Source: Miscanthus floridulus (taxonomy: Eukaryota > Streptophyta > Magnoliopsida > Poales > Poaceae). Taken from it: a DNA stretch of 64,000 bases. The notes under the pieces were generated by a model, which did no database searches, was not told the origin of the DNA, and saw only the letters and a program-made list of their open reading frames with translations. Positions within the stretch are counted from its first letter, which is position 1. Each line of letters opens with the position of its first letter. The translations under genes were made by a program, and so were the position numbers. Location: positions 60,961,633-61,025,632 of the forward strand of contig NC_089584.1 in the NCBI RefSeq assembly GCF_019320115.1. Direction: 5' to 3'. Positions 11,060-61,490 of the stretch are shown piece by piece.

Positions 11060-11075
11060 AATCAATCCAATCAAT

Positions 11076-22888: not shown

Positions 22889-22893
22889 GTACT

Positions 22894-34304: not shown

Positions 34305-35694
34305 TGATAATAACAAACTAAAACCGAAGAATCCATAAAATCATCTATACTTTGACAGGCTTTCCGAAAGACATGCTATACATGAAGGCTTAGATGAATC
34401 GGCTGAAATAGCCCATTCAGGTGAAAAGGGACTACATCGTGTGAACAATCAACTATTTCATATGGACAAACCTATGGACTCATTAGACTTAACCTACTAT
34501 CTCTAATAGTGGGGTTCGACTGGATCGATGCAGCCGTGATAAAGACAACAAATCAAACCCTTAAAGTACACAGATCTATTCACACTTAACAGAATCATGG
34601 ACACACACTGTAGGCATTAAAGCATAGGCGATCAGCTATTTGGCCGATGTAGGCATAGCAAACAGCTAAGGTCATGCTTAATCGAGAACAGATCTACTAA
34701 CTAGCATCCTCCAAATCTACAGTGCCATCAGTGGGGATCGACTAGATCATTACAGCCATAATAGCGAACTATAGACCAGATTTAACTAACCAGCAAACCT
34801 CTTCAAGATCATACATGCCTTAATCGCGTACTATGCATAATCAGGATCGAAGTAGAACAACCGATGAAATGTAACCCGTCGCTTAGAGTAAGAAACATCG
34901 TGTTGTAATAAAGCAAATGATGGACTGAAAGGATATAAGGCCGATCTAACTCGATCTTGATCGAGCAGATTGATGTTGCTGCAAACTAATAACAATGAAA
35001 ACATCAACAAGATTGGTCACTTAATGAATCTACCCGAAGGACGCCACCCTTAGATAGAGCCGATAACTTGACCTTAATCTAGTTTGAGCAGTGGAGGTCG
35101 ACCAGATCAATGCAGCCATACTTAAACTTGACAAGAGTCGATAACTAGCTTATACTAGAGTTCATAGTGGAGGTCGACCGGATCGATGTAGCCATACAAA
35201 CCAAAGTATAAGCCATGATAGTACTTACTGACAAATCGGAGGTCAGCCAGACCGATGCAGCCTTGCTTGCTAAAGAACTCATTGAGATCTACTCTACTCC
35301 AAGTCCTAAGGGTTGGCCGGAGCTGAAAAAAGGTAAATTATATTTGATTGATTGGATGTCTTTTTATAATAGCCAGGGTCTAATATTTATACCTAGAGCC
35401 TAAATATGAATCCTATTCAAGTACAACTCATTACAATCTTTGGTATAAAAGACAATATTCCTATCTTAAGATAACTTGGACCCTAATCTTTCCCTTTTTG
35501 TAGAGTCCAATATGTATTTCGCGACGCCAACCGTAGCTCATTATCATTATCTGCTGACGTCATTCAAAGAGAGCCGATTCTAGTATTGCTTCTAAATCAG
35601 CTGATATCAATCCTTATGCAATCGATTCCTTGATCGACACAATTTTGGAAGCTTTGAGTTCCCGTGTTCTTCTTCCCAAATTTTGGTGTAAACA
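34305..35694 (-). repeat. Element C 3' LTR (left copy, truncated)
   Basis: 1390 bp matching 62013-63402 without net length change. It ends TTGGTGTAAACA, abutting the PPT (35695-35712). The partner LTR has about 520 bp more at its inner end, missing here. Five scattered copies of a motif like GTGGAGGTCGACCGGATCGA occur at about 34512, 34731, 35091, 35163 and 35230. Confidence 0.85.
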
Positions 35695-35712
35695 CATGCC
35701 CCCCAATTTTGG
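35695..35712 (-). other. Element C polypurine tract
   Basis: Minus-strand CCAAAATTGGGGGGCATG directly upstream of the 3' LTR start TGTTTACACC, near-identical to the tract in A and B. Confidence 0.8.
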
Positions 35713-35998
35713 GATAAAAATGATTTTATTCCAAAATTTCTATTTATCTGTTTACCACGATGCAACTATTTTGTTCTGAGATATACGCATGACTCCTAAC
35801 TTCCCAGCCCGAGTTTTATGTAATATCCTAATAGTATCTTTTCCAATTCACTTGGCCCGTTTGCTTTCCCCTTCTTTCTCGAGCAAATCCTAACAGCCGC
35901 CATCACCATCACCAAAGCCTCAACCCTAGCAAATCTTGTGCCCCATTAAGTTTTTTATTTGAGTGATCTTCCTCAGATTCAAATCCATTTCGGCTGTA

Positions 35999-38900
35999 AT
36001 GGCGACTAGTGACCACGTCCCTAAGGTATGCTTCCAAGTTTCCATCTTCCAAGTACCGGTCGCTACCCTATATTTCCTTTCTTCTCAAATTTATTTCATC
36101 CGATTTCTTGGAAATGAGGAACAAAATCTTGATTTCATTGACTAGTGTTCCCATGTCTATTTTCTGGGGCCTATGGGTGACCCTGATCCATCTAATTTTA
36201 TTTGTCAAGAAACCAACCAAATTCCTTTCAAACAATTTGTAGTGGATTCGTCTTCCTGGAACACCAAGACTCCCTTTAGAAACTGGCCCAAAATGCCTAA
36301 GAGATGAAGAAATTAGTTTTGAGGGTGTCTAAGAAAAAGGGTGGAGATTGGGAGCTTTATGATCTGAATCAATGCTTGACACTTTCATTGTCTAGAATGG
36401 AGAGGAATGATCCACTCCTGATCTCTGCATCTTATTTCTGGTCCAACACCCTAAATGCCTTTGTTTTTGGCCATGGCCTAATGACTATCACTTTGGCCGA
36501 TGTTTATATGCTGACCGGCCTCAGAATAATAGGATTGATGCAGCCTTATGACTTCTTAAGTGCTAGATTCAAGAAATTAGCCAAGATATCAGATTGCACA
36601 GGATGGGCTAGGTACATTCAGATCCACATCGTAGACAAATCAACCATTAGCGAAAAAGAATTTGTGGCCTTACTAAACATGTGGTTAGAAAGATTTATCT
36701 TCTGTGGGTCATCTTGTGGTCCGACTTACAATCACAAACTCATGGCAGAGCATCTAGCAGTAGGCAAGGATATCCCTCTTAGAAAGTATCTATTAGGAGC
36801 TACTTATCATCTGATGCACTAGGTAGCCACCTAATTACTAAAGAATGAACTAGTGCATACTATCAGTGGCCCTTGGTGGTTGATACAACTATGGCTCAAC
36901 CTATATATGCACAAGATTGTAAGGCCTGATCTCAAAACCTGAGTTTCCCTTCCTCCAAGTTTGATGAGGAATATAGAGGTGAAGAAGGAAGAACCCATCA
37001 GTGCATGAGCTATGGTGAGGTTGCATCAGGCATAACAATCAATATCGATGTTGGCCATCTCTTCAAAAAGTTTTATAGAGGGTTTGATGCAAATATCCTA
37101 TCTTGGCTAGCACACGATGAGGATGAGAACAATGAGCTAATCTTCCCATTTAAATTTTGATTTGAATTAGGCTGTTCGGATGAGATGGAGGCTACAATCT
37201 TTAACTCCTTCATCAAGCCCTGCGTTCTTCCAACCAAATTTCATCATGGTCATGGCAAAATGGCTACAAGCTCCTTTCTTCCAGGCAACCTTCCAACTTA
37301 TGAGTTTTACAACCCTTCTTTTGTAGCTCATCAGTTTAGTCTTGGTCAATTACCTCCTCAACTGTTCTTCAAGGATATACTGAGGCCAAGAGAAGGTATC
37401 AGTGAAGTAATGGAAACTTCTAGAGTTTTTCAACTAGGATCAAATCTCCCTTCTCTTTACTTGCATGACTAGGCAAGAGTCAACTTCGCTTCCATCCTTT
37501 TTGACTCTTGGTGGCAAGAATGACACTCCCATCTCTTCTATGGGCTGGCCCACCCTAGATGCATAGCCCTAGATGGAGAGTTTGCTTCTGACAGTGAGGT
37601 AATTTACTATTCTTTTTCAAAACAATTATTCGATGACCTCCCCTACCAACTATTCTAACAAACCTTTTTTAGGACATTGAGTTCAATCCCCCGAGCTTGG
37701 ACAGGAAAGGGCACCCCATAAATTATCAGCAACCATGCCTAGTTTCAAGAATAGGATCAGTTGTGCCTCCATTGAAGAAGCTAATGAAAACTGACGCTAC
37801 CCCTGCAATCGTAACGTATCAATCTTCAAAGCACAAGGTAGCTCAAGGGACGACCTAGAAAACCGTTATTGGGAAAAGACTCCATAGAACGAGACCATCA
37901 ACTACTCATGTAAACAATTCATCTTTTCCTCAAAATGATATTCAACTTCTGATCCCCTTTCTTCACAGTTATCAACCATTGCATCCCAATCGGTTCTGGG
38001 TGCGGAGTTGTTGTCCTAGGCATTTAATTCAGCATTGACTAAACCTTCATCGGCCAATCCCCAAGAGGAGCCAATTTTGGTTGAACCAACCGACGCTCCT
38101 AGGATTGTAGAAGATGAGGATCCTTCCATTTCAATCCCCGACGTTGCCAAGGTATCTCCTTAAAGTTCTTGATTCTTATTTAATTTCACCCTTCATCTGA
38201 TCATTTATTATGTCAGATACCCTTTGAGGGAACACCCATGTAGGAGCAGGAGTTTGATAGTCTACTTATTGAAAATGATCCTGTTGTTGTTGACACCCAG
38301 ATTGTTGATTCCACAATTCAGCACACAACTGATGGTAAGAAAATCATATATCCATTTTATCCTTCTGCAATAATTATGAACTAAAGATCTTCCTTGATAT
38401 TTGTAGATACCAATGTTGTGAACTTAGAGCCGATTCAACTAGATATCATTAGTGCATCATCAGTTGTTCCTCCTCTTTAGATAGAGGCTATCACAAAAAG
38501 GGTACTATATCCACTTCACCGTTCATTTTGTTAAAACTGATCCAAACCTCATAATCAAGATTTTCTTATACATAGGCACTCAATCTTCTAGCTCTGAGCT
38601 ACTCTTTTAATCTTGAGGAGTATCTAGATGAAGATGAAATCAGCTCGTCAGCCACCTCCTCTAAGGAAGCTTTGTCAGAAGAGACCAAAAATCAGCTAAG
38701 GGATATATTGCCAATGTTTGAGAAGAATATAGTCGATTTGGTCCAAGACACTAATTCAATGCAGAGAGTCTTCTTGGCTATTAAAGGTAATCCATCCCTA
38801 GTTCTCTCTAGAATTTTGTCACCTTTATCCATTATTGAAGATCAGGCCCTAAAGGTGAAAAAGGCTCAGATGAATCTATCTGACCGTGAAGCTTTATTGG

Positions 38901-39264
38901 CCAAGAGGAACTCCAACAGGCAAGTGGCTAAAGAGCTGACATAGTTGATTGATGATTTGAAAAACTCCTCCCTCAGGATCGACCCAGAGTTGTCCCAATT
39001 GGAAATCAAGTGTGCAGAACTTGAGAAGGAACTAGAGAACATGAAGGCTGCCATTGATCGCCATAAGTCCAACCTAGCTCAAATACCCGATGCCATCAAG
39101 CAAAAGAAACAAAAACTGCTAGCCAAAGTCAGAGAAGGCAGGGCCATCCATAGTAGCCTCGAGGACATTCCTAGATCAGTCGAAGAAGACAAACAACAAA
39201 TCACAGAAGTTCATGCTATCCAGCTAGAAGTATTAAAAGCAATCCAGGATGTTCTAGACTTTTG
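35999..39264 (+). pseudogene. Antisense PMD-like gene of element C
   Basis: Diverged relative of the genes in A and B, in the same antisense position. Exon 1 is MATSDHVPK then GTATGC (36026). The first acceptor has lost its AG (TTCTTG before 36111). The PMD region is at 36304-36822 (ISASYFWSNTLNAFVFGHGL, TLADVYMLTGL, LLNMWLERFIFCGSSCGPTY). It continues at 37185-37598 (YEFYNPSFVAHQFSLGQLPP), then a donor (GAG then GTAATT, 37599). The last exon carries a coiled coil (38672-39264; EIKCAELEKELENMKAAIDR). A frameshift near 36170 and several stops disable it. Confidence 0.75.
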
Positions 39265-39679
39265 ATCTATATATCAACGTGTATCTGGTGTAGAATCAAT
39301 GATAACCATACTTTTTATCGCCTCATTGTATTTCTTGTTTTTGGCTAAAGAGCCAATTTGAAAATAACCAATTCTAGACTTCCAACCTTAACCCAATTAA
39401 GTCTAAAAACATGACCTTTATTAAGAGAACCCCTTAATCTTTTGTCCTTAGTCACCCAGCGCCGTATTCTCTTCGGCATTAGTGAGGTGGCGCTTTGCCC
39501 TCTATTAATTGTGGTTGCCTTTTGCACGTCCCAAGGCATCCACCTCCTCACTCTATGGCTTCAAATACTACCCGAGGGCTCCATCCTCAAACACATCTAC
39601 ACTCACAACCGCTCCTGTTCCTTTGCTCTTCTCCACCCTCGCAAACTCTATAGCATCCTTTTCCCCTTCTTGTAGATTC

Positions 39680-40527
39680 AATGGCCAGTGAGGATAGCTA
39701 AGGCAAGTGTGCAACAGAGGAGATTTCGAAGGAGAATATGCTAGTGAATCAGCGCCTTCAACGCATGAGGTGAGATCGGCATCTTCTATTCATGACAATG
39801 AACTATTCTGACTTGTCTATAGGTTCATTTTGAATGACAGTCTTCATCCTCTTCCAAGGGCCAGTGAGCCCTCTGATGCTGCATCTTCTGCACCAGCCTC
39901 ATCATCGATTCCTCTAACTCGTACAATGGTGACAACGCCCGGTGTTTCCTCTGAGAGTGGAGGGCAGCCCAAGACTGTTATTCTAAGGCAACTCAGGAAA
40001 ACAGTTAGCTTGAGATCCACCTCGAGGTTTCTCATGCCACCCTTCACGCCACCAAAGAAGAGGCCAGTGCCGCTCAGGCATGGCTGGCCGAGTCCGACGC
40101 CATGGCGGCAGGTAAAATGAATTCTAGGAATGCTCTTATTCTAATTTCCATTATCTTTAAATTGATAGCTCTCCTGTTTCTGTGATCGCCAGCCCTGACG
40201 GTGCTATTGGAGTCCCTCCAACTAGCGATGAACGTGGCCATGGATGCTGTCAATGCTTGGGCCCCCCTCATCAACGCTTGCCTCCATGACATTCTGGCCC
40301 GTGTTCAGGAGATCACCCTCCATGGTTTCTATCATGGCGCATTAGTGGCGCTGGCCGCAGCACTGGTCTAGACTGAGCACAAACTCCACACCATGGAGAC
40401 CGGCTTCTCGATGGGTGATGGCCTCGAGGAGCATGGGGATTTGATCAAAGAGTTTGTCATCGCAGTGGAGGCCATTGTGGACATCACATCCGCTCAGGAT
40501 GTTTTGAACAAGGTCTTCGATTAGTTT
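39680..40527 (+). pseudogene. Second plus-strand module of element C: Transposase_28-type protein C-terminus
   Basis: Starts around ATG 39680 (MASEDS) and looks spliced (donor about 39770, acceptor about 39821; donor about 40112, acceptor about 40192). The last part reads LESLQLAMNVAMDAVNAWAP, then ARVQEITLHGFYHGALVALA, and ends with EAIVDITSAQDVLNKVFD. This resembles the C-terminus of grass Transposase_28-type proteins, as in element F. It sits where RT to integrase of C should be. Confidence 0.55.
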
Positions 40528-40859
40528 GCATTTAGGGCAAACTAATGAATACAATCTTCTACTCTTCCATGACTGTGTCTTAGTGCAATGTCCTTGTATA
40601 TGTCATGATTGTCTTTGTTTTCGCTTTTGCTCTATAAGCGATACATATCATATCGGCTTTTACATCTTTAGGTTTATTTTTTGAACTAGAGGTGATATCC
40701 TTTTGGTATCAGCTATTAGAGCTGATGACTGAACCTATCAATTGTCAAGCATTGAACTTAAATGTTGAGATAATACTCCTTCAATCATTTTCCACTGATC
40801 GCTTCTTGATAGGTTGCATCAGAACTCTTTAGATCAAAATTTAAACAATTGATTAACCT

Positions 40860-41649
40860 AGGCCAAGCATCTAATTAAGTAAAACAATCTTTGAACTTCC
40901 TTTAACAAATCCATCAACTCTAGCTTGTACTCAGGATTCAACATAGCATTCACATACATCGGCCTAGTCCTATGTCTAGGACCAATGTCTATCTCCCTTA
41001 ATCCACCAGCCGACTCGAAGCCATGATTATCCATCAAAACAAACTCTCAAAGTCGATTGCTTGGATTAGCTATTGGCATTCAAAGCCTTCTAGCTCCTAG
41101 TATACTAGATTGGCTATTGCGATACTCATAGATTCATTAGTGTGAACCAGCTCGACATCATCTCCATGCTATTGAATCAAACACTGATGCATGGTTGATG
41201 GCACATAGCAGTTTGCATGAATCCAATCAAGACCAAGGAGTAAACTGTATGAACCTTTTCCATCGATGATGAAGAATGTGGTGAGCAGAGTCTTACTCCT
41301 AATTATTAGTTCGACGTTCATTGCCCCCTGGGTCTTAGATGCATTACCCCCAAAATCCTTAAGCATCATGTCGGTCTCAATCAAATCTCCTAGTCCCTTG
41401 GCAAGTTTACGAAAAGTGGTGTAAGGCATAAGATTGATAGAAGCACCTCCATCCACCAACATCTTATTCATTGGCTTCCCATCAACAAAACTTTTTACAT
41501 ATATAGCCTTTAAGTGCCGATGCTTGACTAGCTTATCGAATATAGCCTGCTGTATAACTGTTAACTTGGCAACTATTTTCTCATACTTTGATTCATCAAA
41601 ATTTGAATAGACCTCTTGATCTGCTGGAGCTCTGACTTCTAATGGCAAC
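40860..41649 (-). pseudogene. Element C end of gag-protease and start of pol
   Basis: Protease on the minus strand at 41649-41169: NKMLVDGGASINLMPYTTF, then LLLGLDWIHANCYVPSTMHQ. The frame continues, with stops, to TGA at 41034-41036. This overlaps ATG 41032-41034 by one base. The pol start reads MDNHGFESAGGLREIDIG and then LMDLLKE, matching A and B. Similarity ends at about 40860, so everything from RT on is deleted. Element B inserted at 41649/41650. Confidence 0.75.
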
Positions 41650-42416
41650 TGTTGATGCAAAAGTGGATCTACAAACACAAAGGGCTAATACCCGAATCGA
41701 TATCCAAAGCGTGCCAGTCGATTTGACCTGTTAATCGACAAGGATGAAGATACAAGCACTTTGGTCCTGACAACAGTGATACGCCCGGAAGTCACAGCCA
41801 AGAGGTACTCACACGGAACTCGAGAATCGCCGAAGGTCGCACTGAAGCTATGCAACTCGCCGAATCAGTGAGAACTCATAAAAAGGAAAAATATGCAAAT
41901 TGATGAAGTCGCCGAAAAGTAAGTAGATGCAAATAGGAGTAAAAATTGGTTTTGATATTGATTGATTCATTATTACATTGCCCCTCAATCTATATTTATA
42001 CCCTGATCTAAAGAGGCATAACCAAATACAACTAGGACACCAAGTCCATATCTAAGGAAACACGTGACTCTTACATGAATCATACTCTAACAAATATAGA
42101 AAAGGAAATCAACTCCTATCTATTTCCCTGTCCGCCTCAATTACGATGGAAATCTCACTGACCTCCTTTCCATCGGCATACTTCCTGTTTCATCAGCAGT
42201 AGTCTTCAAGCCTTCCTTCATCGGCATCGATAATAACATCTCCAACCTTATCGGCAACGCCCGAGCCTAAATCAACCTTTCCATCGATCACCACCATTCA
42301 TCAGCAACCATCTTTTACAAGCTGATTCTCATCGGCTATCAGCGTATACAGTAACTTTCCTCCTGCCGATTAGCCCACTCTGATCATTTTGACACGTGCA
42401 AAAAATGGTGTCAACA
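41650..42416 (-). repeat. Element B 3' LTR (767 bp)
   Basis: On the plus strand it begins TGTTGATGCAAAAG and ends GGTGTCAACA. The PPT follows at 42417-42434 (minus-strand CCAAAATTGGGGGGCATG). The U3 repeat is reduced to about one unit compared with three in A. Confidence 0.95.
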
Positions 42417-42846
42417 CATGCCCCCCAATTTTGGAGTATAAAACTATTAATGCTTTGAAATTTACTCCAGATAACGTTTGCCTTCACCCAATTACCGTAA
42501 CTCATCCTTCAAGCTAAAACTTGATCTATTATCAAATCTAATCAAATCTAATCCTGATTCATGCACCTTAGTAAATATCGCACAATTGCCAATCACTCTT
42601 GCCCTGATTATGGTTAAGATACCGAAACAATAATCCATCGGCAAGATCCTAACATAATAATGTCGCCATTTTTAGAATTAAAATATCCTATATCGAGATC
42701 TCTTCCAAGTCATAATTACTTGCCATTAAATCATCTGTACAATCCCTTGATTATCGTGCAAACAGTTACCATATCCATCTGAACCACCTCGACCTACATG
42801 CGCGTGGCATAGAGATAAGTCCAGAATACCCCTACTCCAAGCGGCT

Positions 42847-42854
42847 TATAAATA
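42847..42854 (+). promoter_or_regulatory. TATA box for the antisense PMD gene of B
   Basis: GGCTTATAAATAGATT, about 164 bp upstream of ATG 43018 and identical in core and spacing to element A. Confidence 0.65.
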
Positions 42855-43017
42855 GATTTCTCTGGAACGCTCGTCTTCTACCCTCAGACTCCAATCTTTG
42901 ACATTCTCTCTTTCTGGCGGCGACTCCGACGAACAACTGCGCGACCTCAACCAACAAGAACTTTTCTCCAGCGTCAACCTCGAGTCTCTGGCTCGTGCCC
43001 CCATCTACCTCAAGATA

Positions 43018-46000
43018 ATGGCAATCAACTTCGATGTCCCTGCGGTTCGTTCCTCTTCCGTTACCTTTTACCTCGATTCCTCTGGTCTTTGCGAGTTCAT
43101 ACAGTTGGTAATTTTCCTCTTTTCTTTTGTTCTTCGGATCCTCTAAACTTAGGAACTGTGCAACAAATTAGTTATTCCAACTGATCAGCCACATGTCCAA
43201 TGCCTAGGACCAATGGGCAACCCAGATCCAACTGATTTGATTAATGCAGAGGTTAACAGAATCCCTTTTAGAGCCCAAAATTTCTCTCTGAATTTATGGA
43301 AAGATACATTCCGATCTTGGCCCAAAACCACCAAAGGGTGGAAAGATTGGTACTTAAGGGTCAATAGGTCGATGCAAGTACACTGGGCAGAACAGAAGCT
43401 AGACCAATGCATTAGGCTATCCATTGCCGATATGCAAAAGAATGAGTCAATGATGATTGCAGCTGCTTACTTCTGGTCAGACACAACAAACACTTTTATG
43501 TTTGGACATGGCCTAGATACTCCCACACTTGCCGATGTCCACATGCTCACTGGCTTGGACATTTCAACTACCGATGAAGGCTCCATCTATGGTAGAAAAT
43601 CTAAATATAGGGTGAATACCCGTAACATCAGCGGTTGGACGGGATACATTCAAGAATGCCAGAGAACCGGGACAGTTAACCAGAGGGAACATGCCACATT
43701 CTTGAATATGTGGCTAGAAAAATTTATCTTCTGTGGTCGATCAGTAGGACCAACCAACACCTTCCTCCCCGTGGCTGAACTCTTGGCTAATGGTGTAAGG
43801 TTCCCTCTTGGCCGATACCTTCTGAGCTCCACTTATCATCTTCTTCATCAAGTGTCTCAGAAACTTTTGCTTGGCGAACCCATCGGCAACTTAGGAGGCC
43901 CGTGGTGGTTTATCAACATGTGGCTGAATGCCCATATGCACAAACATTTGCAATGGGACTTCTTTGCCCAACAATTCCTACGAGAAATTGCTGAAGACCA
44001 CGTGCTTGGGGATGAGGAATCGGCAACACGCTCACCCCTCAATTTTGGTGAAGCCATAATTGTCCTCCCTGGAACAGAGGCCAATGAAGACCAGATCGGC
44101 AGATTCTTCCAAAGCTTCTACAATGGTCTTTCTCGTGATCATAGGGCCTGGGTACCTTATATTGACGAAGAAAATAGATTCCCCCTTCTTTTCAACTTTA
44201 CCGATGACACTCTGAATCAGGATAATGAACTCATGATGGCCATCATTACTCCCAGGGCAATCCTAGTAAACACATTCGGTAGCGGGAAAAACACCAATAT
44301 CACATATGAATTTTACAACCCATCGGCAGTATCCCATCAATTGGCTTTTGGGCAACTGCCAATTAAACTTTGTTTTGCCGATGTGATCAAACCTAGAGAA
44401 ACAATCACCTGCGGAATAGATTGGAGCAGGGTAGTGCGACTCTCCCCCGATGCCGATACTATAGATGTTGATATATCCGTCTGGACGCCAGTATCTTTCA
44501 TCACCGAATCATATAAGTAATGGTGGCGAGAGTGGAGGGAACAACTATTTGCAACATCTGCTCACACATATCGGCACATGATCGACCCTGAATACGCCAT
44601 TCCCGATGACGCAGTAAGTTTCTTTTAACTCCCTTCTGCTTTTTCCTTTCATATATTGGTAACTAACTTTCTTGTGACAGGTTAACAACCCAGCACCATC
44701 TATGAGCAAAAGTGGAAAACCCTTCGATCTTCGGCCTGTTTCCCCGATATCACCGATCGGCTACAACGCCCCCACCTTAGCTGCTTTGACTCACTAGAAG
44801 ACCTGTGCCAAGACCATCACCTCCAAGTCCAAATTGGCTACAGCTAGGGCCACTCCATTAGCTGCTGCTACAACCTTGATCAAGGCATTCAAGGTAACAA
44901 CCCTGTTTATTTCTACTCATGCCGATCACAAACTGTATTAACATTAATCATCAGGGTGTAAGAGCCACTGCTGGATCATCATCGGCAATTCCTCCGACAT
45001 CAAGCACCACTACTTCTGACAAACCTTTAGAGGTATTCCTTTGATTTTACATTTTATCTGTTAAATATCATACCTTACACTTGTTTTGCAGCAACAAATG
45101 GGTACATCGGCAAGCGTACCAGATGTCCAAGCTCCGCAACCAACAAGTGCCGATGCCCCCTAGCCAACCATTGCTGAGGCCCAAGCAAAGCGCAAAGCCT
45201 TAACAGATGTCGAGGCACAGCAAAAACGACAGAAGTCCATGCCGATCCCCACATCTGCCCCAATGTCTGCAATCTGGCCTGAATTAGTCGATGCAACTGA
45301 GCAAGCAGTTAATCCTCCTGTACAGGACATACCATCGGTCATCATACCCCAAGAGCCAACCATCGATGAGGCCACAGAGGATATCCCATCGGCAAGCTCA
45401 GTCGATCCTCCACATGGCATACTCCAGGCTGCTTCCTCCAGCCAAGTACAGGAAATTGCCTTGAAACAGGTAAGTCGATTGACCTAGTTGATTTATAATA
45501 TTCATACTTATCCTTAACTGACCTCTTTTTCTTTTTCTCAGGAACAAGACTCCCCAAACAGCCTATTTTCCTTTGCCATCGACGTTTCTGATGATGATGG
45601 AGAGGAAACAAGTTCTTCCCTTGCAGTGGGAACAATATCGGCAGAAATTAAGTCCAAGTTGGAAGCTCTCCTGAACTTGTTACAGCAGGATACCGCCCAA
45701 CTGGTAGATGACTCGAACCCCGCAAAGGCAATTTTCAAAACAATCCGTGGCTAGGTCCCTACCGATGTTGAAGAAGTACTCTTCCCAGCAGCCCATTTAG
45801 AAAGCCGTCAACTGCAATATCAACGGGCTGCTCAACGTATTGCCGATAGAGCAGCTCAGGCTCAACTCAAAGAAGAAATGCTACAATTGAAACAGATTGC
45901 CGATGAGAAGCACAAGGGCATCGGCAACTTGCAAACTTCGGGCGCTGAACTTAAGCAGAAAATCTTAGACTTATCGGCAAAGAAGATGGCTCTATTGGCT

Positions 46001-46237
46001 GAATTGAAAGAAGTTGAGGCAGCATTAACTCATGCCCAACAAGAAGAAAGCCGGCTACCCAATGCCATCAAAGCCCTTCAGCAAGAAAGAGACATCCAGG
46101 CTCGCAAAGCCTTGGCCATGAAGAAAAAACTCAAGCCTGTGGAGGGTGCTGCCGATGAAGACATCAAAGAAATGAAGGAAGCCGACCAGATTCGCCTACA
46201 TGCGATATTGGCTATCGAATCCTTGTTAAACTTGTAA
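43018..46237 (+). pseudogene. Antisense six-exon plant-mobile-domain (PMD) gene of element B
   Basis: Exons: 43018-43044, 43153-44613, 44681-44893, 44955-45032, 45092-45469, 45542-46237. Introns are 108, 67, 61, 59 and 72 bp with GT-AG ends (the second donor is GTAAGT). All junctions are phase 0, and coding length is 9+487+71+26+126+231 codons. Exon 2 holds the PMD (residues about 30-400: IAAAYFWSDTTNTFMFGHGL, then TLADVHMLTGL and LNMWLEKFIFCGRSVGPT). Exon 6 holds a coiled coil ending AILAIESLLNL. Stops at 44518, 44798, 45168 and 45752 all read Gln in A, each a C-to-T change. It probably made a nuclear protein, by analogy with plant PMD proteins. Confidence 0.88.
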
Positions 46238-46323
46238 ATCTTGTCTATTGCTTTGGCACTTTATGAGACATTGACATCCTTGTATAATTCTAGCCGATAG
46301 GACTGTTATCGGCACTTGTACTT
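46238..46323. other. 86-nt gap between convergent PMD gene and pol of element B
   Basis: Counterpart of 17990-18074. It contains two GCCGAT/ATCGGC motifs around 46292-46314. Confidence 0.7.
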
Positions 46324-49300
46324 TTATGCATCCATCTAGATACTAGGGTAATATTTCTTTAAATATTTTCCATTTAATGCTCTGGGAAACACAACCCCTT
46401 CGAGGGTTTCTAGAATATATGTGTTACCAGGAACAGACTAATTTATCCGATATGGACCTTCCCAATTAGGAGACCACTTTCCAAACTTTGAACTTTTAGT
46501 TCCAATCGGTAAAATCAATTTCCAGACTAGATCTCCATCGGCAAACTCCTTTACCTTCACCTTCTTGTCATACCATCTGGCTACTCTTTTCTTATTTTCT
46601 TCGATGCTAACTAAAGCCCTTAACCGATGACCCGCCACATCTTCCAACTCATCCTTCATAAGAGTATCATAATCATCGGCTGTCAGCTGATTTTGAGAAC
46701 GTATTCACCTAGAGCCAATTTTAATTTCCCAAGGTAATACTGCGTCGTGTCCATATACTAACTGATAAGGCGTTACTTTGGTTGCACCATGATATGACAT
46801 CCGATATGACCACAAGGCTTCATTTAATACTGTATGCCACCTCTTAGGATTTTCTTCAATTTTGTGCTTAATGAGTTTGATGATCCCTTTGTTAGAAGCC
46901 TCAGCCTGACCATTAGCTTGAGCATAATATGGAGAAGAATTTAAAACTTTAATTCCCATACCTGCAGCAAACTCATCAAATTCTCCTGATGTAAACATAG
47001 TACCCTGATCGGTAGTGATAGTTTAAGGAATACCAAATCGGTAAACATTATGCTCTTTCACAAAATCGATCATATTAGCCGATGTCACCTTTTTTAAAGG
47101 AATCACCTCAACCCATTTTGTGAAATAATCGGTAGCAACCAGAATAAATTTATGTCCTTTGCTCGATGGCGGATAAATCTGACCGATGAGATCGATAGCC
47201 CATCCTCGGAACGGCCAAGGTTTAATTATAGGGTTCATAGCCGATGCAGGCGCTCTTTGAACATTACCAAACTTTTGACACCCCTAACATCCTTTAAAAT
47301 AGTTAAAACAATCTTCAAGAATAGTCAGCCAATAGTGTCCATTCCTCCTGATCATCCACTTCATCTTGAAAGCCGATTGATGCGCTCCACACACTCCTTC
47401 TTCAATTTCACCCATCAAGCTTTTCGATTCATCACTGCTAACACATCTGAGTAAAACTCCATCTATAGTTCGATAATATAATTCATCATCGAGGAGCACA
47501 TACTTGGTAGCTTGAAACCTTATACGTCTTTCAACCTTTTTATATGGATCCTTTAAATAATCAACAATCTCCTTTCTCTAGTCATCGGTATCGACCGCCG
47601 ATGTTAGCACTTCCTGAATAGGCTGATACCCTAAAGCATGCTGAGCTAGTCGATTAGCCTCTTCATTATGCAGTCGAGAAATATGTTCAAGATATAAATC
47701 TCTAAACCCTTTCAACAATTGCAAACATCTTTCATAATACGAAATTAAAAATTCACTTCGGCATTCATAAATCCTAGCCAATTGATTTATAACTAGCATA
47801 GAATCACCAAAGATTTCAACAGCATCAGCACGTATCTCCTTCAGCAATTCTAACCCTTTTATCAAGGCTTGGTATTCAGCCTGATTATTTGTCGATGTAG
47901 CAACAATCGGCAATGAAAACTCATACTTCCTTCCTTGAGGTGAAATCAACACAATGCCGATACCTGCTCCTTCACCACATGTGGACCCATCGAAGAAAAG
48001 TGTCCAAGGAGCAACCTCCAGAGAGTCCACTGTATTATAATGCTGAGTGACAAAATCAGCCATAACCTGCCCCTTAACTGCCTTAGTCGATTCATAACGT
48101 AGTTCAAATTCTGATAATGCTAAAATCCACTTGCCGATTCTACCACTTAATATCAGCATCGACAGCATATACTTGACTATGTCGTCTTTGCATATGACCG
48201 TACATTCGACAGATAACAAATAATGTCTTGATTTGACACAAGAAAAGTATAAACATAGACATAATTTTTCGATGGCCGAATACCTTGTCTCAGCATCCAC
48301 TAATCTTCTGCTCAAATAATAAATAACACGTTCTTTCCCTTCAAATTCTTGAATAAGAGCTGAACCGATAACGGTATCATCAGTTGACAAATACAACCTA
48401 AAAGGTTTCCCGTGTTGAGGTGGAACTAGCACTAGAGGATTTGTTAAATATTTCTTAATTTCATCTAGGGCTAACTACTGCTCAGCTCCCCATACAAATT
48501 CCTGATCGGCTTTCAATTTAAGTAATGGACTGAAAGCCTTGATCTTACCCGACAGATTAGATATGAATCTTCTAATGAAATTAATCTTACCGATCAAAGA
48601 TTGCAATTCGGTTTTATTGGTAGGAGCAACCACCTTGTTAATTGCATCAATAGACTTTCTACTGATTTCGATGCCCCGCTGATGCACCATAAAACCCAAG
48701 AATTGACCTGCTGATACACCAAATGCACATTTATTAGGATTCATCTTCAATCCATGCTTCCTTGTGCACTCTAGTATCTTTCGTAGATCGGCTAGATGTT
48801 TTGTGATATCTCCAGACTTAATCACTACATCATCAATGTAGATCTCCACTAATGTGCCGATGTATTCATGAAAAATAAAGTTCATAGCTCTTTGATAAGT
48901 AGCGCTGGCATTTTTCAAACCAAACGTCATGACTATCCACTCAAACAACCCTACATGACCTGGACATCTGAAAGCGGTCTTGGGAATATCTTCTTCAGCC
49001 ATGAATATTTGATTGTAACCTACATTACCATCCATGAAGCTGATAATTTTATGTCTGGCTACAGCATCAATCAACAAATAGCAATCGGCATTGGATAGCC
49101 ATCCATCGGTGTGGCTTTGTTAAGATTCCTGAAATCAATACAAACACAAAGTTTTCCATTTTTCTTATAAACAGGAACCACATTAGAGATCCACTCTGCA
49201 TATCAACACTGCCGAATAAACTTCACCTCAATTAATTTAGTTATTTTGGCCTTAATGTCAGGAAGTATATTAGGGTTGCATCGGCGCGCTGGCTGCTGAT

Positions 49301-49559
49301 GTGGCCGAAATCCAGATTTGATAGGTAACCGATGTTCAACTATCGATTGGTCTAATCCTTGCATCTCAGTATAATCCCAAGCAAAACAATCTTTATACTC
49401 TTTTAACAAATTAGTTATTTGTTGCTTACACTTGGAATCTAACTTAGCACTAATAAAAGTAGGCCTTGGCCTATCGCCATTACCAATATCTATTTCTACT
49501 AAATTATCTACTGATGTGAACCCTTGACCTAATTTTCCATCATTGGCAAACCTATCCAT
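46324..49559 (-). pseudogene. pol: Element B pol: RT, two RNase H domains, integrase
   Basis: Minus-strand counterpart of A pol, one base shorter because of a 1-nt deletion near 49080 in the RT N-terminus. RT core with YIDDVV at about 48840-48823; RT-linked RNase H; archaeal-type RNase H (TLFFDGST, about 48005-47980); integrase with AIDLIG, TTDQGT and GQAEASNK (about 47200-46910). Stops at 49203, 48475, 47578, 47284, 47023, 46705, 46438 and about 46335 break it; most are single C-to-T or G-to-A changes relative to A. The start ATG shares its A with the gag-pro TAA (49559-49561). Confidence 0.93.
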
Positions 49560-52500
49560 TAAAACTCTTCTTTAGAACCGACTGCTTGGATCGGTGGAAT
49601 TTCATAATCAGCCACTCTAAGGAATTCTTTTTCCCAAACTTCTCCTGATATGCATTTAGTTCGCTCATAAGTATCTGATTCTACCGATGCGATGATATAA
49701 GAAGAATCACCAGGGACAAACTCAATCTTATCCCCAATCCACTGTATGAGGCATTGATGCATTGTAGAAGGAACACAACAATTAGCATGAATCCAATCCC
49801 TCCCTAGAAGCAGATTATATGCACCCTTGCCATTAATAACAAAGAACGTCGTCGGCAAGGTTTTGCTGCCGATAGTCAATTCAACGCATACTGCCCCTTT
49901 AGCCGGTGACACATTGCCTTCAAAATCCTTCAGCATCATATCAGTTTTGGCCAAGTCTTGATCTACCTTACCAAGTTTCCGATACATCACATAAGGCATA
50001 ATATTAATCGCAGCCCCTCCGTCGATAAGTATCTTAGATACAGGCTGCCCATCAACTCTGCCTTTCACAAACAAAGCCTTAAGATGTTGTCTCTCGTCAT
50101 CAGTAGGTTTCTCAAAAATAGCCATCATTGGATCTAGTGTCAACTGAGCTACTTGATCAGAGAGAACAACTTCTTCCTCATTATCAGATAGTGCCAAAAA
50201 CTCCATCGGCAACATGAATACCATATTAACATCTACCGATGGACCCTTATTTTTGTGTTTTACCTGCCACTGCCGATGACCGGACCTCTCATTGGAGGAA
50301 TTTTCCTCTCGGTATAAATCCTCTTGATGCTCACGTTGCATCCTTCTTTTCTGTGTCTTTGTCAGACCCTCCGGGCACCATCGAGGAAACTTGGTCTTCC
50401 AAACCGACTGATAACAGATCCCAGTTGATTCTACACGGCGTATATTAGGGTCCCTGTAGAATATTTCTTCATCGGGAACTCTTGTGTTTGCCATCTCCTC
50501 AAGCTCCTCTTGATTCCTTAGAAAATATCCAGTGCGTTTACCAAGCCTTTCATGTACACTAAGTCTGCCCCCCAGCCGATCATGCACTGATGCTCTGCCT
50601 CTAATTAGCTCATTGATAAATAAACCCTGATTGCCAGGTTGCAACCTCCTTTCTGACCGATTGACCCCATAATAACCATTGCACTCAGGGCAATTTTCAA
50701 TAGTTGGCAATTTAATACCTTCTTCCCAGCAATGGATGAAAAACGGGCACCTCCAATGATTTTTATGCCGATACCATTCTTCTCGATGTCTCTCTTCTTG
50801 CTGTTGTTGATATCGGTCCTTACGCTGACGCCAACCCTCCTGCTGCCTTCGATGGTAACCACAATGCCAGGTCGAGGAGGATTTTTGGAACTACTGCTTT
50901 CTCCCAGCAAACCCTTACTTTTTGCATCATCGGTAGTTATCCGGTGTTGGGGATCCACTGATGCGTTTTTCTCAGCAGCCTCTGATGTCAATACCTTGGT
51001 CTTCCCTTTGGCCTCCAACATATTTGCTAGAAAAGGGTGTTGATCAATTTTCATCGGCTTCTAGGCCTTGGAAGTACCAAACTTAATTCTCCCAGATTCA
51101 ATAGCCAATTGTAACTGTTGCCTGAACACCTTGCACTCATTTGTACTGTGTGAAGTTGCATTGTGCCATTTGCAGTACAAGATCTTCTTCAACTCTTCTG
51201 CCGATGGGATCACATGATTAGGTGACAGCTTAATTTGGCCTTCTTGAAGCAGAAGATCGAATATCTTGTCGGCCTTGGTGATATCAAAGGTAAACTTTTC
51301 TGGTTCTTTTTGACCAAAGGGACAAGATATCGACTTTTTATTCTTAACCCACTCAGCTAAGCCAATAACTGGTTCTTCATTAGAATCAGAATCTCCTACT
51401 TCAACAAATGATACTTTTTTACTCCAATTCTTTTTAGGTTCAAAAACCCTAGTATCTTGATTAGAGATTCTTTGCACAAGATGACTGAGGCTTTCAAACT
51501 CCTAAGAAGCATATCTGTCTTTAAGATGTGGCAATAACCCTTGGAAAGCCAGATCGGCAAGCTGCCGATCATCTAGCACCAGACTGTAGCACTTATTTTT
51601 TACATCTCGTAGCCTTTGCACAAAGCTTTCTACCGATTCATCATTACGCTGTCTCAATTTTACTAAATTGGTAAGCTTCTTTTCATGGATTCCAGCAAAG
51701 AAATACTAATGAAATTGTTTTTCTAGATCAACCCAAGTAATAATAGAATTTGGTGGTAATGAAATGAACCATGTAAATGCCGATCCAGACAAAGATGATG
51801 AAAATAATCGAACTCTTAATTCATCTCTGCTAGCTGCCTCTCCACATTGAATAATGAAGCGATTGACGTATTCCATTGTTGATGTATCATCTTGCCCAGA
51901 GAATTTAGTGAAATCTGGTACCTTGTACTGATTTGGGAGAGGAATTAAATCATATGCAGGAGGGTATGGAGTCCGATAAGAATAAGTATTGACCTTGGGC
52001 TTTATCCCAAACTGATCCTTCATAATTTCTACTATCTTATCAGCCCAAAAAGCATCAACCTCCTATTGACGAACTGGCTGAATTTCTACAAGAGGTGCCT
52101 ACTGATATCCCTCCACATATCTTTGTGGCCCACGATCTCCAGCAATTGGCATATTTGCTGTTACTTGTGGTCCATTAACCTATTGGAAAGGATTCATCGG
52201 CTGAGCTGCCGATGCTTGATTCTGGAAACCAGTTTGCATATGACCTTGTTGAATCCCTGCAACCTGCTGATTTTGCTGAACTATATGTTGAACAGGTAAC
52301 TGTCCTGACCAACCATTATTAGAACTCATCGGTACAAAACTTACCGATGGCTGGTAATTTGCTGACATTATTGGATAATTATAACCAGCTTGAGGCATGA
52401 ACTGAACCCCAGTTTGACTCATAGCAGGGGCTTTCTGCTGCATCAGCAGTAAGCTTGCCAATGGACTTGAATTGGATATTTGAACCAAAGGCATCTGGAA

Positions 52501-53232
52501 ACCTCCTGGAGTTGGTTGCATAGTAGTTGCTGTGGCATATTGAGGCACTTGAGCCATCGGTGAAATAGCCGATGGTATAGGAGCTTTTCCTACTGCATCA
52601 AACACTTGAGGTAACCCATGATTGAAAGCAGATGACTCCGGGGGCATACCATATCCCCACCAATTAGCAGGAATCTGGCTATTCTGAGACACAGGGCCTG
52701 ACATAGCTGATGCCGATAGATCTGTATTAAGATGAACTCGTCCTCTTGGTAGTACCGGATCTGATCGTATTGGTGTAGATTGAATATTAGGTAAGCCTAC
52801 CAATACTAGAGGAGAAGTAACTTCTGTACCCACAACGGCCGAGGGAGCCGATGGAGTATTGACAGATGCAGGCTCTGGTTGGTGATAGGCAAGCCCAACA
52901 TAATGCGGTGATGCTTGTCCTTCTTTGAGAGTTCGAACCACAGCATTATGAACAGTATTGGACAGCACATTGGAATGATTAATCAAAGCATGATTTATTG
53001 TAGAATTAACCATCTCTTGAAGTTTACCAGGATTGGAGTCAAAGGTAACCTGCCGAGGCAACGGCAAATCTTGCTTCTGGATGACTTGTCCACTCTTGTT
53101 CAGGCTAAACGATTTCAGACAAAGCTACCTATATTCTTCTACAGCCTTTTCCATAGCCTGCCTCTGCTCTTCCTTAAGATCTTCTTCTGATACCGCGATA
53201 ATGTTCCCTAAATCGATCTCGGAATTGAACAT
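49559..53232 (-). pseudogene. gag: Element B gag-protease
   Basis: Starts at ATG 53232 (MFNSEIDLGN) and ends at TAA 49559-49561. Compared with A it lacks one codon and one further base (frameshift near 50853). The zinc knuckle CKWHNATSHSTNEC is intact here. The second Cys/His cluster (CPFFIHCWEEG...NCPEC) and the protease (KILIDGGAAINIMPYVMY, about 50040-49990) are present. Stops lie at 53125, 52180, 52099, 52063, 51706, 51502 and 51061. Function as in A: capsid, nucleic-acid binding and polyprotein cleavage. Confidence 0.9.
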
Positions 53233-53248
53233 ATTGATTGGATTGATT

Positions 53249-53270
53249 GGTCCCACTAGGCGTGCCAAAA
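53249..53270 (-). other. Element B primer-binding site
   Basis: Minus-strand TTTTGGCACGCCTAGTGGGA, four bases inside the 5' LTR edge. It has no ATG, unlike A, which is why gag is taken to start at MFNSEID in both. Confidence 0.7.
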
Positions 53271-53274
53271 GATG

Positions 53275-54041
53275 TGTTGATGCAAAAGTGGATCTGCAAA
53301 CACAAAGGGCTAATACCCGAATTGATATCCAAAGCATGCCAGTTGATTTGACCTGTTAATCGACAAGGATGAAGATACGAGCACTTTGGTCCTGACAACA
53401 GCGATACGCCCGGAAGTCACGGCCAAGAGGTACTCACACGGAAATCGAGAATCGTCAAAGGTCGCACTGAAGCTATGCAACTCGCTGAATCAGTGAGAAC
53501 TCATAAAAAGGAAAAATATGCAAATTGACGAAGTCGCCGAAAAGTAAGTAGATGCAAATAGGAGTAAAAATTGGTTTTGATATTGATTGATTCATTATTA
53601 CATTGCCCCTCAATCTATATTTATACCCTGATCTAAAGAGGCATAACCAAATACAACTAGGACACCAAGTCCATATCTAAGGAAACACGTGACTCTTACA
53701 TGAATCATACTCTAACAAATATAGAAAAGGAAATCAACTCCTATCTATTTCCCTGTCCGCCTCAATTACGATGGAAATCTCACTGACCTCCTTTCCATCG
53801 GCATACTTCCTGTTTCATCGGCAGTAGTCTTCAAGCCTTCCTTCATCGGCATCGACAATAACATCTCCAACTTTATCGGCAACGCCCGAGTCTAAATCAA
53901 CCTTTCCATCGATCACCACCATTCATCGGCAACCATCTTTTACAAGCTGATTCTCATCGACTGTCAGCGTATACAATAACTTTCCTCCTGCCGATTAGCC
54001 CACTCTGATTATTTTGACATGTGCAAAAAACGGTGTCAACA
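53275..54041 (-). repeat. Element B 5' LTR (767 bp)
   Basis: Same length as 41650-42416 and ends GGTGTCAACA; followed by the TSD-like GCAAG. The TATA box (minus) is at 53618-53625. Confidence 0.95.
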
Positions 54042-56483
54042 GCAAGAAAAAAGCCATTTGAATATTAGCCGATGGTTGCCTTCTATCGACTGTTCGCTTA
54101 GCACGTCACACTTGAGGTCTACCAGATGCTTGAGCCTATTCTAGTTTTTTGTTCCTTAGCCATTGCAATCTTCTTTTCTGGCTTCTTGTCAGACCTCTTG
54201 GACACCATTCGCCTTCCTGCCAAACATATTCTTCTTTATTACTTTCTTCTTCATAATCAGCCCTGTTTTGATCAACAACTCGCTTCCCAAGCCAATCATG
54301 AACAGTCTTATTTTTTAAGTGCCGATCCATGTTATTATGATGATACTCATCTCGAGCATGGATAGACCGATAGTTGGCTTGAGATTGCCTGAACTCCCAA
54401 TATTGCTCGCTGCATTCTGGATAGTTATTTCTGGTAGGTAATTTCAAAGCTTCGTTCCAACAATGTCTGAAGAAAGGACAATTCTAATATGATTCAGCTT
54501 GCTTTCTTTCATACCTCTCTTTTTCCTACTAATGTTGGTATTCTTGCTCTTCTAACCAATGCTAATAATCCTTTTCTTTCTACCGCTGCCATTTGTTCAA
54601 CAAAATTTGAGATGTAGCACGTGGCCTTGTCGCCCCATCCTTCAATGTCTCTCCCTGCTCATATTGGCTCTTTTGTTGATCATGATGCCTCCTAATTTCT
54701 CTGTATTCATCAGCCAATATTTGGATCTCGAGATCAACTATTCTAGTTTCTTTTAGTCTAACTAATGTTAGGACTTTAGTCTTTCCTTTGAGCAGCCTAG
54801 CATCAACCATGTTCTAATCTCTTAGAAAAGGATTATGATCAACTTTCATTTTTCGAGGCACATCAAATTTGAGCCTTCCTTGTTGAATAGCCCTCTGTAT
54901 ATGCTGCCAAAAAACTCTGCACTCATTAGTAGAATGAGAAGTGGCATTGTGAAATTTGCAGAACTTCTTATTCTTCAACTGATCAAGAGGCAACATAACA
55001 TGATTGTTGAGCAACTTCATCTGTCCCTTCTCGAGCAAGAAATCAAAGAGCTTGTCTGATTTTGTGACGTCAAAGTCATAGCTCTCTTCGACTCCTCTTC
55101 CCTAAGGATTTGGCACCATTACTGTCTTCTTACCCCAATTCCATTTGGCCACAGCAACCTATTCTTCTTCGAAGTCCTCATAGCCATCATCGACTGAATA
55201 TGGATTATAGGCTTCGGCCATTGTGGTACTTTTATAGAATTGGGTGTCTCTGCGCATATTCTGGAATTGGCTATTGAGCACTGCCACTTGTTGAGCCAAC
55301 TGACCCAAGTTGTAAAATTCTTGTCCCAGTAGCTTCTCTCTCCACGTTGGCAACATTTCTTGAACGGCCAAAGCAGCAAGTTGATCATCGGTCAAGTTCA
55401 ATGAGAAGCACAAATTTCTAGTCTCTCGGAACCTCTGAAGAAACTTGGTGCCCGATTCATTAGTTCTCTACCTTATGGTCGTCAAATTGGTAATCTTCTT
55501 TTCTCTAGTCCTAGTATAAAAATATGTATGAAACTTCTCTAGGTCAGCCCAATTGGTAATGGAGTTAACTGGTAGTGATGAAAACCAAGTGAAGGCTAGC
55601 CCTGACAGAGACAAAGAGAAGAAACAAACTTGATGGGCCTCTTCAATGGATGCTTCGCCCAACTGTGTAAGATACCGACTGACATGTTCTATTATGCTTG
55701 TGCTATCTTGGCCAGTGTCTCCCAACTGTGTAAGATACCGACTAACATATTCTATTATGCTTGTGCTATCTTGGCCAATGAACTTACCAAACTCTGAGAG
55801 CTTGTAATTCACTGGAAGAGCGACCAAATCATACCATTCTAGATATGGGCATTTATACGAGAAGGTCTGCCCTTTTGGCTTCAAACCAAACTGATTCTTC
55901 ATCATCTCGGTCACTCTAAGCAACAACTCGTCAGCATTTAAATTTGGATTACTCTACAATTGCTGACCCATCTGTGAATTAAAATTCTAGGTACCTTGAT
56001 ACCCTAGATTTGGAATCATGTGAAGGGTGTTGTAATCTATGCCATAATGATACCCTTATCGAATCTCTATCTATTGGGTCCTCTACTAGTTTCCTCTTGA
56101 AGTCTCTAGTTGTAGATGTTAGGATCTATATCTCTATGAATCCTTTGAACTGATGGCACTATTTTCTGAGCCGAGGATGGTATCTGGCCTGATATGCCAA
56201 AATTGACCATTTGATTCTAAATTTGCCCTGTCGGCTGTTGCACATGCTATTCTGATGATCCTGGATTATACTGTATCTAATTAGTATTAGCACCCTGAAC
56301 TTGCTCAGATGAGCTCTGAACCACCTGGACATCATCATTACCAGCTGGTGCTATTTTTTGACGGCTAGTACTAGCTTGATTAGTCCCTTGAGTCAATGGA
56401 TGTGAATGTTGTAATAAGCCAGCCCAACCTGATCATCTAGAAACCCATGAAACACCTCTTTCATGGTGTTGTGGAATGCGTTC
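54042..56483 (-). pseudogene. gag: Element C gag, central part
   Basis: Minus-strand pieces: proline/glutamine-rich region with many stops (56483-55930); capsid domain (55926-55468: MKNQFGLKPKGQTFSYKCPY, FFSLSLSGLAFTWFSSLPVN); zinc knuckle CKFHNATSHSTNEC (about 54965-54924) of the same CX2HX4HX4C type as A and B; and a second Cys/His cluster with one Cys now Tyr (NNYPEC, about 54430). The piece at 54447-54136 ends near the B insertion. It joins the N-terminus at 61168-61453 across element D. Confidence 0.75.
55658..55783 (-). repeat. 63-bp in-frame tandem duplication in element C gag
   Basis: Copies at 55658-55720 and 55721-55783 encode a repeated GQDSTSIIEHVSRYLTQLG. A and B have this capsid segment once, so the duplication is specific to C. 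Confidence 0.9.
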
Positions 56484-61167: not shown

Positions 61168-61453
61168 CATTCAAGAAAACTTCATTATGATTCGACATGG
61201 CATCATGAACATACTTGTTTACAGCTTCTACGAAGAAACGCCTGTCTTCAGCTTCATCTGCATCTGTCTGCCCATGCAACCGAACTCTTGGTAGTGGATA
61301 TTTTTGAACAATTGTATTGTCACATGTCTTGGTGTAGGACAACAAACACTTATTCTAAAATTCTTCTATAGCTTTGCTGATGACATCTTTATCTCCAATA
61401 GGTAGGTCTTCATAAGGCACCATAAGGATGTCATTGTTGTTGTAAGCCACCAT
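61168..61453 (-). pseudogene. gag: Element C gag, N-terminus
   Basis: ATG 61453 (MVAYNNNDILMVPYEDLP), a stop near 61353 where A has Gln, then YTKTCDNTIVQKYPLPRVRL and AVNKYVHDAMSNHNEVFLN. The order and spacing match the gag N-terminus of A (VNHALINHSNVLSNT). It is cut by element D and continues at 56483. Confidence 0.7.
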
Positions 61454-61463
61454 GACAATTGTG

Positions 61464-61486: not shown

Positions 61487-61490
61487 CATG

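Follow-up and report, generated by a model that had tools for sequence, protein, structure and literature searches.

The 64-kb window of the Miscanthus floridulus genome (2.68 Gb) analysed here, positions 60961633-61025632 of contig NC_089584.1, contains a Ty3/gypsy long terminal repeat (LTR) retrotransposon, element B, that carries, antisense to gag-pol, a six-exon gene for a plant mobile domain (PMD) protein in the interval from pol to the 3' LTR (43018-46237). The exons are joined in phase 0 throughout by five GT-AG introns into 950 codons, a total that includes a first exon of 27 nt and agrees with the about 950 codons of the original prediction, which had been made from the sequence of the window. 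The presence of this six-exon antisense gene in B and in a second element of the window, A, is confirmed, and the earlier interpretation of it as an antisense gene that keeps its introns inside a retrotransposon is supported. We regard it as almost certain that the gene, its introns and the selection acting on it are real at the sequence level, and we are no less confident that the gene is spliced, as judged from the sequence together with gene models.

A 90-nt exon 1 followed by a 45-nt intron 1 (donor at 43108) was considered as an alternative parse of the 5' end and dropped: the first exons of C (MATSDHVPK), an older relative of B in the same window, and of a further family, D (MATQDEIPE), are also 27 nt long, and therefore the 27-nt exon 1 with a 108-nt intron 1 is favoured. 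Two copies located 19 kb apart on contig 1 (L033 and L034) have the same G-to-A change at the donor at 43108 and perhaps represent one duplicated insertion. The length matches between A and B that had been predicted were reproduced by alignment: exons 1-4, exon 6 (to the shared TAA) and introns 2-5 are equal in length, the differences being an intron 1 of 105 nt in A and an exon 5 that is shorter in A by 66 nt, in frame. The gene of C is 45% identical to that of B in the PMD and 25% in the tail; its intron 2 (74 nt) and its exon-6 acceptor coincide in position with those of B. Four in-frame stops are present in B (exons 2, 3, 5 and 6) and four in A (exons 2, 4, 5 and, close to its end, 6); the TAA at the end of exon 6 (46235-46237) is shared in 37/37 unmasked copies. 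Both window copies are thus dead, while the gene family is alive.

Exon 2 was found at 93-96% identity in at least 92 further places of the genome (best 93 of 6580 candidates, B included). For the analysis of splice sites, 40 copies were picked independently of the coding sequence by scoring the 5' flank outside the gene (best 40 of 1543 candidates, B included), their flanks being those most like B's. After masking of stretches unlike B, which removed nine donor and nine acceptor sites, GT was found at 191/191 donors (donor 1 being at 43045) and AG at 189/191 acceptors; exon 2 is 1461 nt long in 23 of these copies. In an alignment of 58 sequences (56 genomic copies, A and B), 276 of the 290 introns are present and none was precisely lost, which bears out the original claim that the introns survive cycles of transposition; the remaining 14, all in five copies, are deleted, rearranged or unalignable. 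The genomic RNA would be the complement of the gene, and because the splice sites GT-AG read CT-AC there, the introns should not be removable from it and would be kept through transposition.

Two NCBI models, which may be computed ones, contain parts of the same structure. P0001 agrees with B at the junctions of introns 2-4 and uses a more upstream donor for intron 5, P0002 agrees at introns 2-5 and then runs into an unrelated integrase, and exon 1 is missing from both. Since both also lack the same exon-5 stretch as A, this element belongs, judging by the shared gap, to the P0001/P0002 subfamily. At the intron 2 junction, all 12 presumably unspliced frames that extend as far as the junction, among database homologues of at least 60% identity, run on for 4-27 codons to a stop, and 10 of them have VS at or one codon after the junction, as GTxAGx would read. 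Lolium models diverge from their unspliced relatives near the intron 2 point (PADQ/QQDG versus PADQ/VPLL; P0012 and P0020). Another model, P0006, in which gag is joined to the PMD, was taken as mis-joined. The matches listed for the query P0047 represent the A/B family, with no intermediate family among them. Members of the A-type subfamily are annotated by NCBI as host proteins, with 31 members in the P0001 cluster (e.g., G000:C19:104748814-104751594), so that the annotation of Miscanthus is affected by genes of such elements; at least 53 A-type loci were scored, many of them with open exons.

Purifying selection on the exons, expected if the original prediction was right, was found for exons 2 and 6, both within the family and in family D, but exons 3-5 lie near the neutral level. 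Comparison of A with 35 of the 40 copies (five rearranged or partly masked ones were excluded) gave nonsynonymous (dN) and synonymous (dS) divergences of 0.030 and 0.217 for exon 2 (ratio 0.14), 0.041 and 0.210 for exon 6 (0.19), and 0.072 and 0.171 for exons 3-5 (0.42). The neutral dN/dS values for this comparison are 0.56, 0.51 and 0.67, respectively; they are below 1 because the changes are mostly transitions (85.7 transitions versus 9.4 transversions in exon 2) and the method is uncorrected for transition bias. The ratios of exons 2 and 6, far below the neutral level, point to purifying selection, while for exons 3-5 the value is only somewhat below it and the evidence is weak. Codon-position diversity in the recent burst of copies was discarded as uninformative, the variation being mostly transitions that occurred after insertion.

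Family D was found with the Lolium relative P0004 as query (best 53 of 9144 candidates); as its copies were retrieved by protein similarity, the sample is biased towards intact ones, and L079, belonging to another family, was excluded. The gene lies antisense to an integrase that shares 70% identity with that of A (one copy checked), and its PMD is 36% identical to that of B. Exons 1 and 2 are 27 and 1431 nt long in 13 copies, three of which have a single stop in exon 2. The dN/dS of exon 2 is 0.18, 0.11, 0.09 and 0.08 in the successive dS bins that begin at 0.03 (77 pairs) and 0.26 in one further pair at dS 0.01, and introns 1 and 2 diverge by 5-17%. Exons 3-6 measure 261, 154, 131 and 681 nt in 10 of 11 copies and are stop-free in eight of the 11, intron 3 being variable in length (73-87 nt). 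Exon 6 has a dN/dS of 0.13, exons 4-5 of 0.36 and exon 3 of 0.53, the neutral values being 0.54 for exon 2, 0.53 for exon 6 and 0.61 for exon 3. Introns 1, 2 and 5 coincide in position with those of B; intron 4, which is in another phase than B's, may be non-homologous. Donor 3 is GC instead of GT in five of the 11 copies (L066, L081, L085, L087 and L088), GC being a rare but functional donor type in plants.

The predicted PMD was recovered by profile search, with PF10536 matching exon 2 of B at 78.2 bits and that of A at 79.8 bits (cut-off 34.9), as well as 51/51 members of alignment A2 (E up to 10). Precomputed domains of P0001 (827 aa) are PF10536 and PF07197 (DUF1409); in a Pfam scan of this protein at E 0.01 the PMD alone was obtained, DUF1409 being below its cut-off in A exon 6. 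TRP28 (PF04195) was not found in P0001 or in the scanned exon pieces (E up to 0.01), and a tblastn search of P0001 against phages gave no match. The coiled coil originally proposed for the tail is suggestive only: a coiled-coil-like heptad signal is present in exon 6 of B, its power being reached in 0.005 of shuffles, with 0.06 in D, in a test that took the best-scoring of many possible segments and scanned the shuffles less finely. A first structure model, built from 11 sequences, was discarded (predicted local distance difference test score, pLDDT, 31.9). The single structural match is a DNA-bound anti-silencing factor, and the predicted fold would be shared with VANC proteins. A BFVD search with the second model returned 29 matches, none at E 0.001 or better, and sequence searches of solved structures gave two matches each (best E 0.7 and 0.037), to unrelated molecules. 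DUF1985 was absent among the families listed (25 of 33), as was 9lnj among the PDB sequence matches.

A further feature of these elements is a dense array of the hexamer GCCGAT/ATCGGC, detected by counting short words, with 81 copies in A versus 3.8 expected and 66 in B versus 3.6 (log10 P -75 and -57, compared with -4.7 for the best word obtained from 20 simulated sequences for each element). The two orientations are represented by 48 and 33 copies in A and by 34 and 32 in B; in A, T precedes the motif in 57/81 cases, and G or A follows it in 64/81. Element C contains 21 copies versus 3.7 expected. In family D, the overlapping words AGCCGA and GCCGAA occur 18 and 17 times versus about 1.9 each at one locus (L065 with L067, 6.3 kb; best -11.6), and GCCGAA occurs 12 times versus 1.2 expected at another (L066; -8.1). 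Among nine controls, comprising window positions 1-10234 and 22605-34304, the host-genome PMD loci L001, L004, L007 and L008, and L089-L091, no GCCGA word was in the top four and none scored below -5.8 (words of fewer than three letters being left out). The last three are other PMD loci of the genome, without a tblastn match to the antisense gene and without the motif.

Seven coding sets contain 51 GCCGAT sites versus 9.4 after synonymous shuffling. For B exon 2, exon 6 and exons 3-5 and for A gag/protease, the observed count was higher than in any of 1000 shuffles; this was not so for the integrase, RNase H and reverse transcriptase (RT). The same procedure in family D gave no clear excess for exon 2 and an excess for exon 6 (6, maximum 5). 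The motif occurs on both strands and, unevenly, in all codon phases, which argues for a signal in double-stranded DNA rather than in peptide or RNA. Its density is 4-10 per kb in the LTRs, pol, gag and the gene, and 1.7-2.7 in introns and before the ATG. Two possible signs of its protection or conservation were rejected: the difference in CpG decay had a p of 5e-6 against all other CpGs but of 0.057 and 0.069 against two matched sets, and hexamer conservation from A to B (48/72 identical versus 142/266 other CpG-centred words, p 0.046) gave p 0.23 against matched cores.

Taking into account the one fold match, the nuclear localisation signal (NLS)-like stretch in the exon 5 linker and the motif array, one could propose that the protein binds DNA and counteracts silencing of the element that encodes it, a role that we find plausible yet somewhat short of an even chance. 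The antisense transcript would be spliced and translated into a nuclear protein of about 950 residues, consisting of the PMD, a linker with the NLS-like stretch and a coiled-coil-like tail that may serve self-association. The PMD would bind double-stranded DNA at GCCGA(T) sites, of which the LTRs and coding regions of the element have about 5-7 per kb, and the bound protein would act against silencing of the copies of this element by the host, in the way that VANC21 acts for VANDAL21. Gene and mechanism weighted together, the chances of this explanation as a whole appear about even. A tentative extension is that grass LTR retrotransposons possess an anti-silencing system of their own, a counterpart of VANDAL/VANC, in which a PMD protein from a spliced antisense gene, its introns retained over the whole divergence of the families, would recognise family-specific GCCGA-type sites throughout the element, also in coding sequence, and keep these copies accessible; MAIN and MAIL1 would in that case be domesticated or related versions of such proteins. 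We find this extension plausible, at slightly lower odds than the anti-silencing role itself.

Several observations weigh against this explanation. The link between motif and PMD is one of co-occurrence only. Both A and B are broken, 36 of the 58 aligned sequences have a frame-changing exon indel, one of the 58 is without an internal stop, and exons 3-5 are near neutral. In the recent burst, singleton transitions look neutral, with 205 nonsynonymous (N) and 110 synonymous (S) changes (ratio 1.86 versus 1.88 expected), and the common transition variants (minor count of at least 6 of 40) comprise 23 N, 24 S and eight stop changes, some of which probably arose by repeated decay at identical sites. 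Apart from the co-occurrence, these are features of a decayed relic of a captured host gene without function, a reading that is true of the two window copies and scarcely credible otherwise: indels and stops in the copies are expected from decay after insertion, as neutral decay is for any silenced copy, and the strong selection seen on exons 2 and 6, both when subfamilies are compared and within family D, together with the stop-free exons 3-6 of 8/11 D copies, makes it untenable for the family. The same exons, with dN/dS well below the neutral value of about 0.55, the in-frame exon lengths and the conserved splice sites render it very improbable that antisense RNA and not a protein is the functional product, regulating pol through double-stranded or small interfering RNA, even though the gene converges on pol in A, with stops 85 nt apart, and antisense transcripts of such regions have been proposed to act in this way (PMC7264820; this and the other papers cited by PMC number are represented by excerpts).

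A real and spliced gene could also encode a protein for another nuclear step, such as import of the integration complex or chromatin targeting, with GCCGAT being bound by a host factor or another protein of the element. The NLS-like stretch would suit such a role, and the similarly placed antisense gene23 of Grande encodes a nuclear protein of unknown function (PMC7264820); nevertheless, the sole structural match is a DNA-bound anti-silencing factor, and families differ in the motif variant that they favour, as would be possible with a partner encoded by the element itself, so that we consider this alternative unlikely, if far from negligible. Interference with the host PMD silencing complex (MAIN/MAIL1/PP7L) through mimicry, by a protein that does not bind element DNA, is improbable. 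MAIN and MAIL1 carry a retrotransposon-related PMD and silence transposable elements (PMC5418596, PMC7156037), and the use of PMD proteins by such elements against silencing has already been suggested in a review, whose excerpt gives no binding site or fold (PMC8616336), but this mechanism leaves the dense element-specific motif unexplained.

Separate promotion of the gene, another part of the original prediction, is at most a possibility. In B, a TATA-like TATAAATA precedes the ATG by 171 nt, and the 11-mer that contains it, CTTATAAATAG, is exact in 33 of the 37 copies reaching that point (33/40 rows, three of which do not reach it), but a search of C and of two D copies for the TATA pattern was negative. 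A stretch resembling CAATTTyGGrrTAAAA adjoins the polypurine tract in three families (B 42417-42455, C 35696-35730 and L065:229-280); by eye it has inverted-repeat character, and it may belong to the priming signal or represent an antisense promoter.

Antisense additional open reading frames (ORFs) between pol and the 3' LTR have been described in maize Grande (gene23), rice RIRE2 and Silene Retand (PMC7264820, PMC11963269), and the genes of B and A share their position and orientation; gene23 is transcribed from its own promoter and has a nuclear product (PMC7264820). The Retand ORFs carry TRP28 (PF04195), which was not found in the scans of the Miscanthus gene. All of these are described as ORFs, and the excerpts mention neither five introns nor a PMD nor conserved intron positions for them (PMC7264820, PMC11963269), while a study of antisense and spliced transcripts is called for in PMC7264820. 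Gypsy-encoded PMD proteins form the clades PMD-A1/A2 (PMC5418596), the PMD is present in 57% of the extra ORFs of Ogre elements (PMC6317226), and PMDs in Gypsy elements are also reported in PMC9289625 and PMC7156037. The presence of PF10536 in an extra ORF of a Ty3/gypsy element is thus shared with the Miscanthus gene, whereas introns, a coiled-coil-like tail, a VANC21-like fold and the motif are undescribed for these PMDs in the excerpts of PMC5418596 and PMC6317226. The word 'intron' occurs 0 times in PMC11963269, PMC7264820 and PMC5418596 and twice in PMC6317226, where it refers to the Ogre sense intron. Of the suggestion that the gene may be undescribed, there remains that introns in these antisense genes go unmentioned in the excerpts; a prior mention is possible in Gomez-Orte 2013 or Steinbauerova 2011. 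Plant LTR retrotransposons are said generally to lack introns, with Ogre and EVADE as exceptions (PMC12786077, PMC6317226), and the introns of these two lie in the element's own sense transcript, whereas those of the Miscanthus gene are antisense.

VANC21 of VANDAL21, an Arabidopsis Mutator-like element (MULE), is likewise encoded by a transposable element in an intron-bearing gene, has a fold matching that predicted by our model, and is associated with a dense short motif in its own element, with variants between related families (PMC5735166). Unlike VANC21, the Miscanthus gene resides in an LTR retrotransposon and not in a VANDAL (MULE) element, is antisense, and by the sequence matches listed encodes a PMD rather than DUF1985; its motif is spread through coding and LTR sequence, and binding and demethylation are here only predicted. 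Human T-cell leukaemia virus type 1 (HTLV-1) is another retroelement with an antisense gene close to its 3' LTR, HBZ, which is spliced; the likeness noted is one of position, and unlike HBZ the Miscanthus gene is a multi-exon PMD gene in plants. Antisense genes have been described in HTLV-1 and in other retroviruses (PMC10186651).

A DNA-bound structural relative together with a candidate binding site makes the function of the PMD, a question that also concerns the host proteins MAIN and MAIL1, testable. If the proposed explanation is true, the protein may shield the element from silencing. The multi-intron antisense gene shows how a retroelement can keep introns.

Table 1. Positions of the retrotransposons, the antisense PMD genes and the motif arrays in the 64-kb window
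Feature	Position	Strand	Remarks
Element A	10235..22604	+	LTRs 10235-11033 and 21806-22604; target duplication GCTGG on both sides; complete
GCCGAT/ATCGGC motif, 81 copies (element A)	10235..22604	both
Antisense six-exon gene of A	18075..21225	-	21225-21199, 21093-19633, 19565-19353, 19291-19214, 19154-18843, 18770-18075
Element C, older relative	34305..63402	-	1391-bp LTRs at about 34305 and 62012; ends approximate
Antisense PMD gene of C, several stops	35999..39265	+	27-nt exon 1; intron 2 37599-37672; exon 6 from 38576
Element B, Ty3/gypsy LTR retrotransposon	41650..54041	- (gag-pol)	complete; nested in C
GCCGAT/ATCGGC motif, 66 copies (element B)	41650..54041	both
3' LTR of B, 767 bp	41650..42416	-
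TATA-box-like CTTATAAATAG (11-mer around TATAAATA)	42845..42855	+	upstream of antisense gene of B
Exon 1 (ATG; MAINFDVPA), 27 nt	43018..43044	+	27-nt first exons also in C and D
Intron 1, 108 nt	43045..43152	+	GT 40/40, AG 40/40; alternative donor 43108 (GT 38/40)
Exon 2, plant mobile domain	43153..44613	+	TAA 44518-44520 in B copy
Intron 2, 67 nt	44614..44680	+	position common to C, D and homologues elsewhere
Exon 3 (linker)	44681..44893	+	one TAG in B copy
Intron 3, 61 nt	44894..44954	+
Exon 4 (linker)	44955..45032	+
Intron 4, 59 nt	45033..45091	+
Exon 5 (linker; bipartite NLS-like KRKALTDVEAQQKRQKS)	45092..45469	+	one TAG in B copy
Intron 5, 72 nt	45470..45541	+	position common to D; acceptor position common to C
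Exon 6, coiled-coil-like tail	45542..46237	+	one earlier TAG in B copy
5' LTR of B, 767 bp	53275..54041	-

The LTRs of A are 799 bp long and differ in 15/801 compared columns, while the LTR pair of B has mismatches in 27/771 aligned columns and is flanked by GCAAC and GCAAG, interpreted as a target duplication of 5 bp that differs at one position. The LTRs of C, inside which B lies, are 91% alike, and a target duplication was not found in the flanks of C. Profile matches in A comprise RVT_1 (RT), rve, Integrase_H2C2, a protease and two RNase H domains, the second, archaeal-type one following the first (RT_RNaseH and RVT_3/RNase_H, 15812-16840). Since a second RNase H is associated with the Tat lineage and the combination of RT, two RNase H domains, integrase and protease is as described there (PMC9289625, PMC6317226), the domain set of A fits a Tat-lineage Ty3/gypsy element. 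Three elements with a PMD gene, A, B and C, thus lie within one 64-kb window, and C, itself carrying an antisense PMD gene, took in B by insertion. Another pair of LTR-like repeats, separated by about 6.7 kb (2188-10235), ends at the start of element A.

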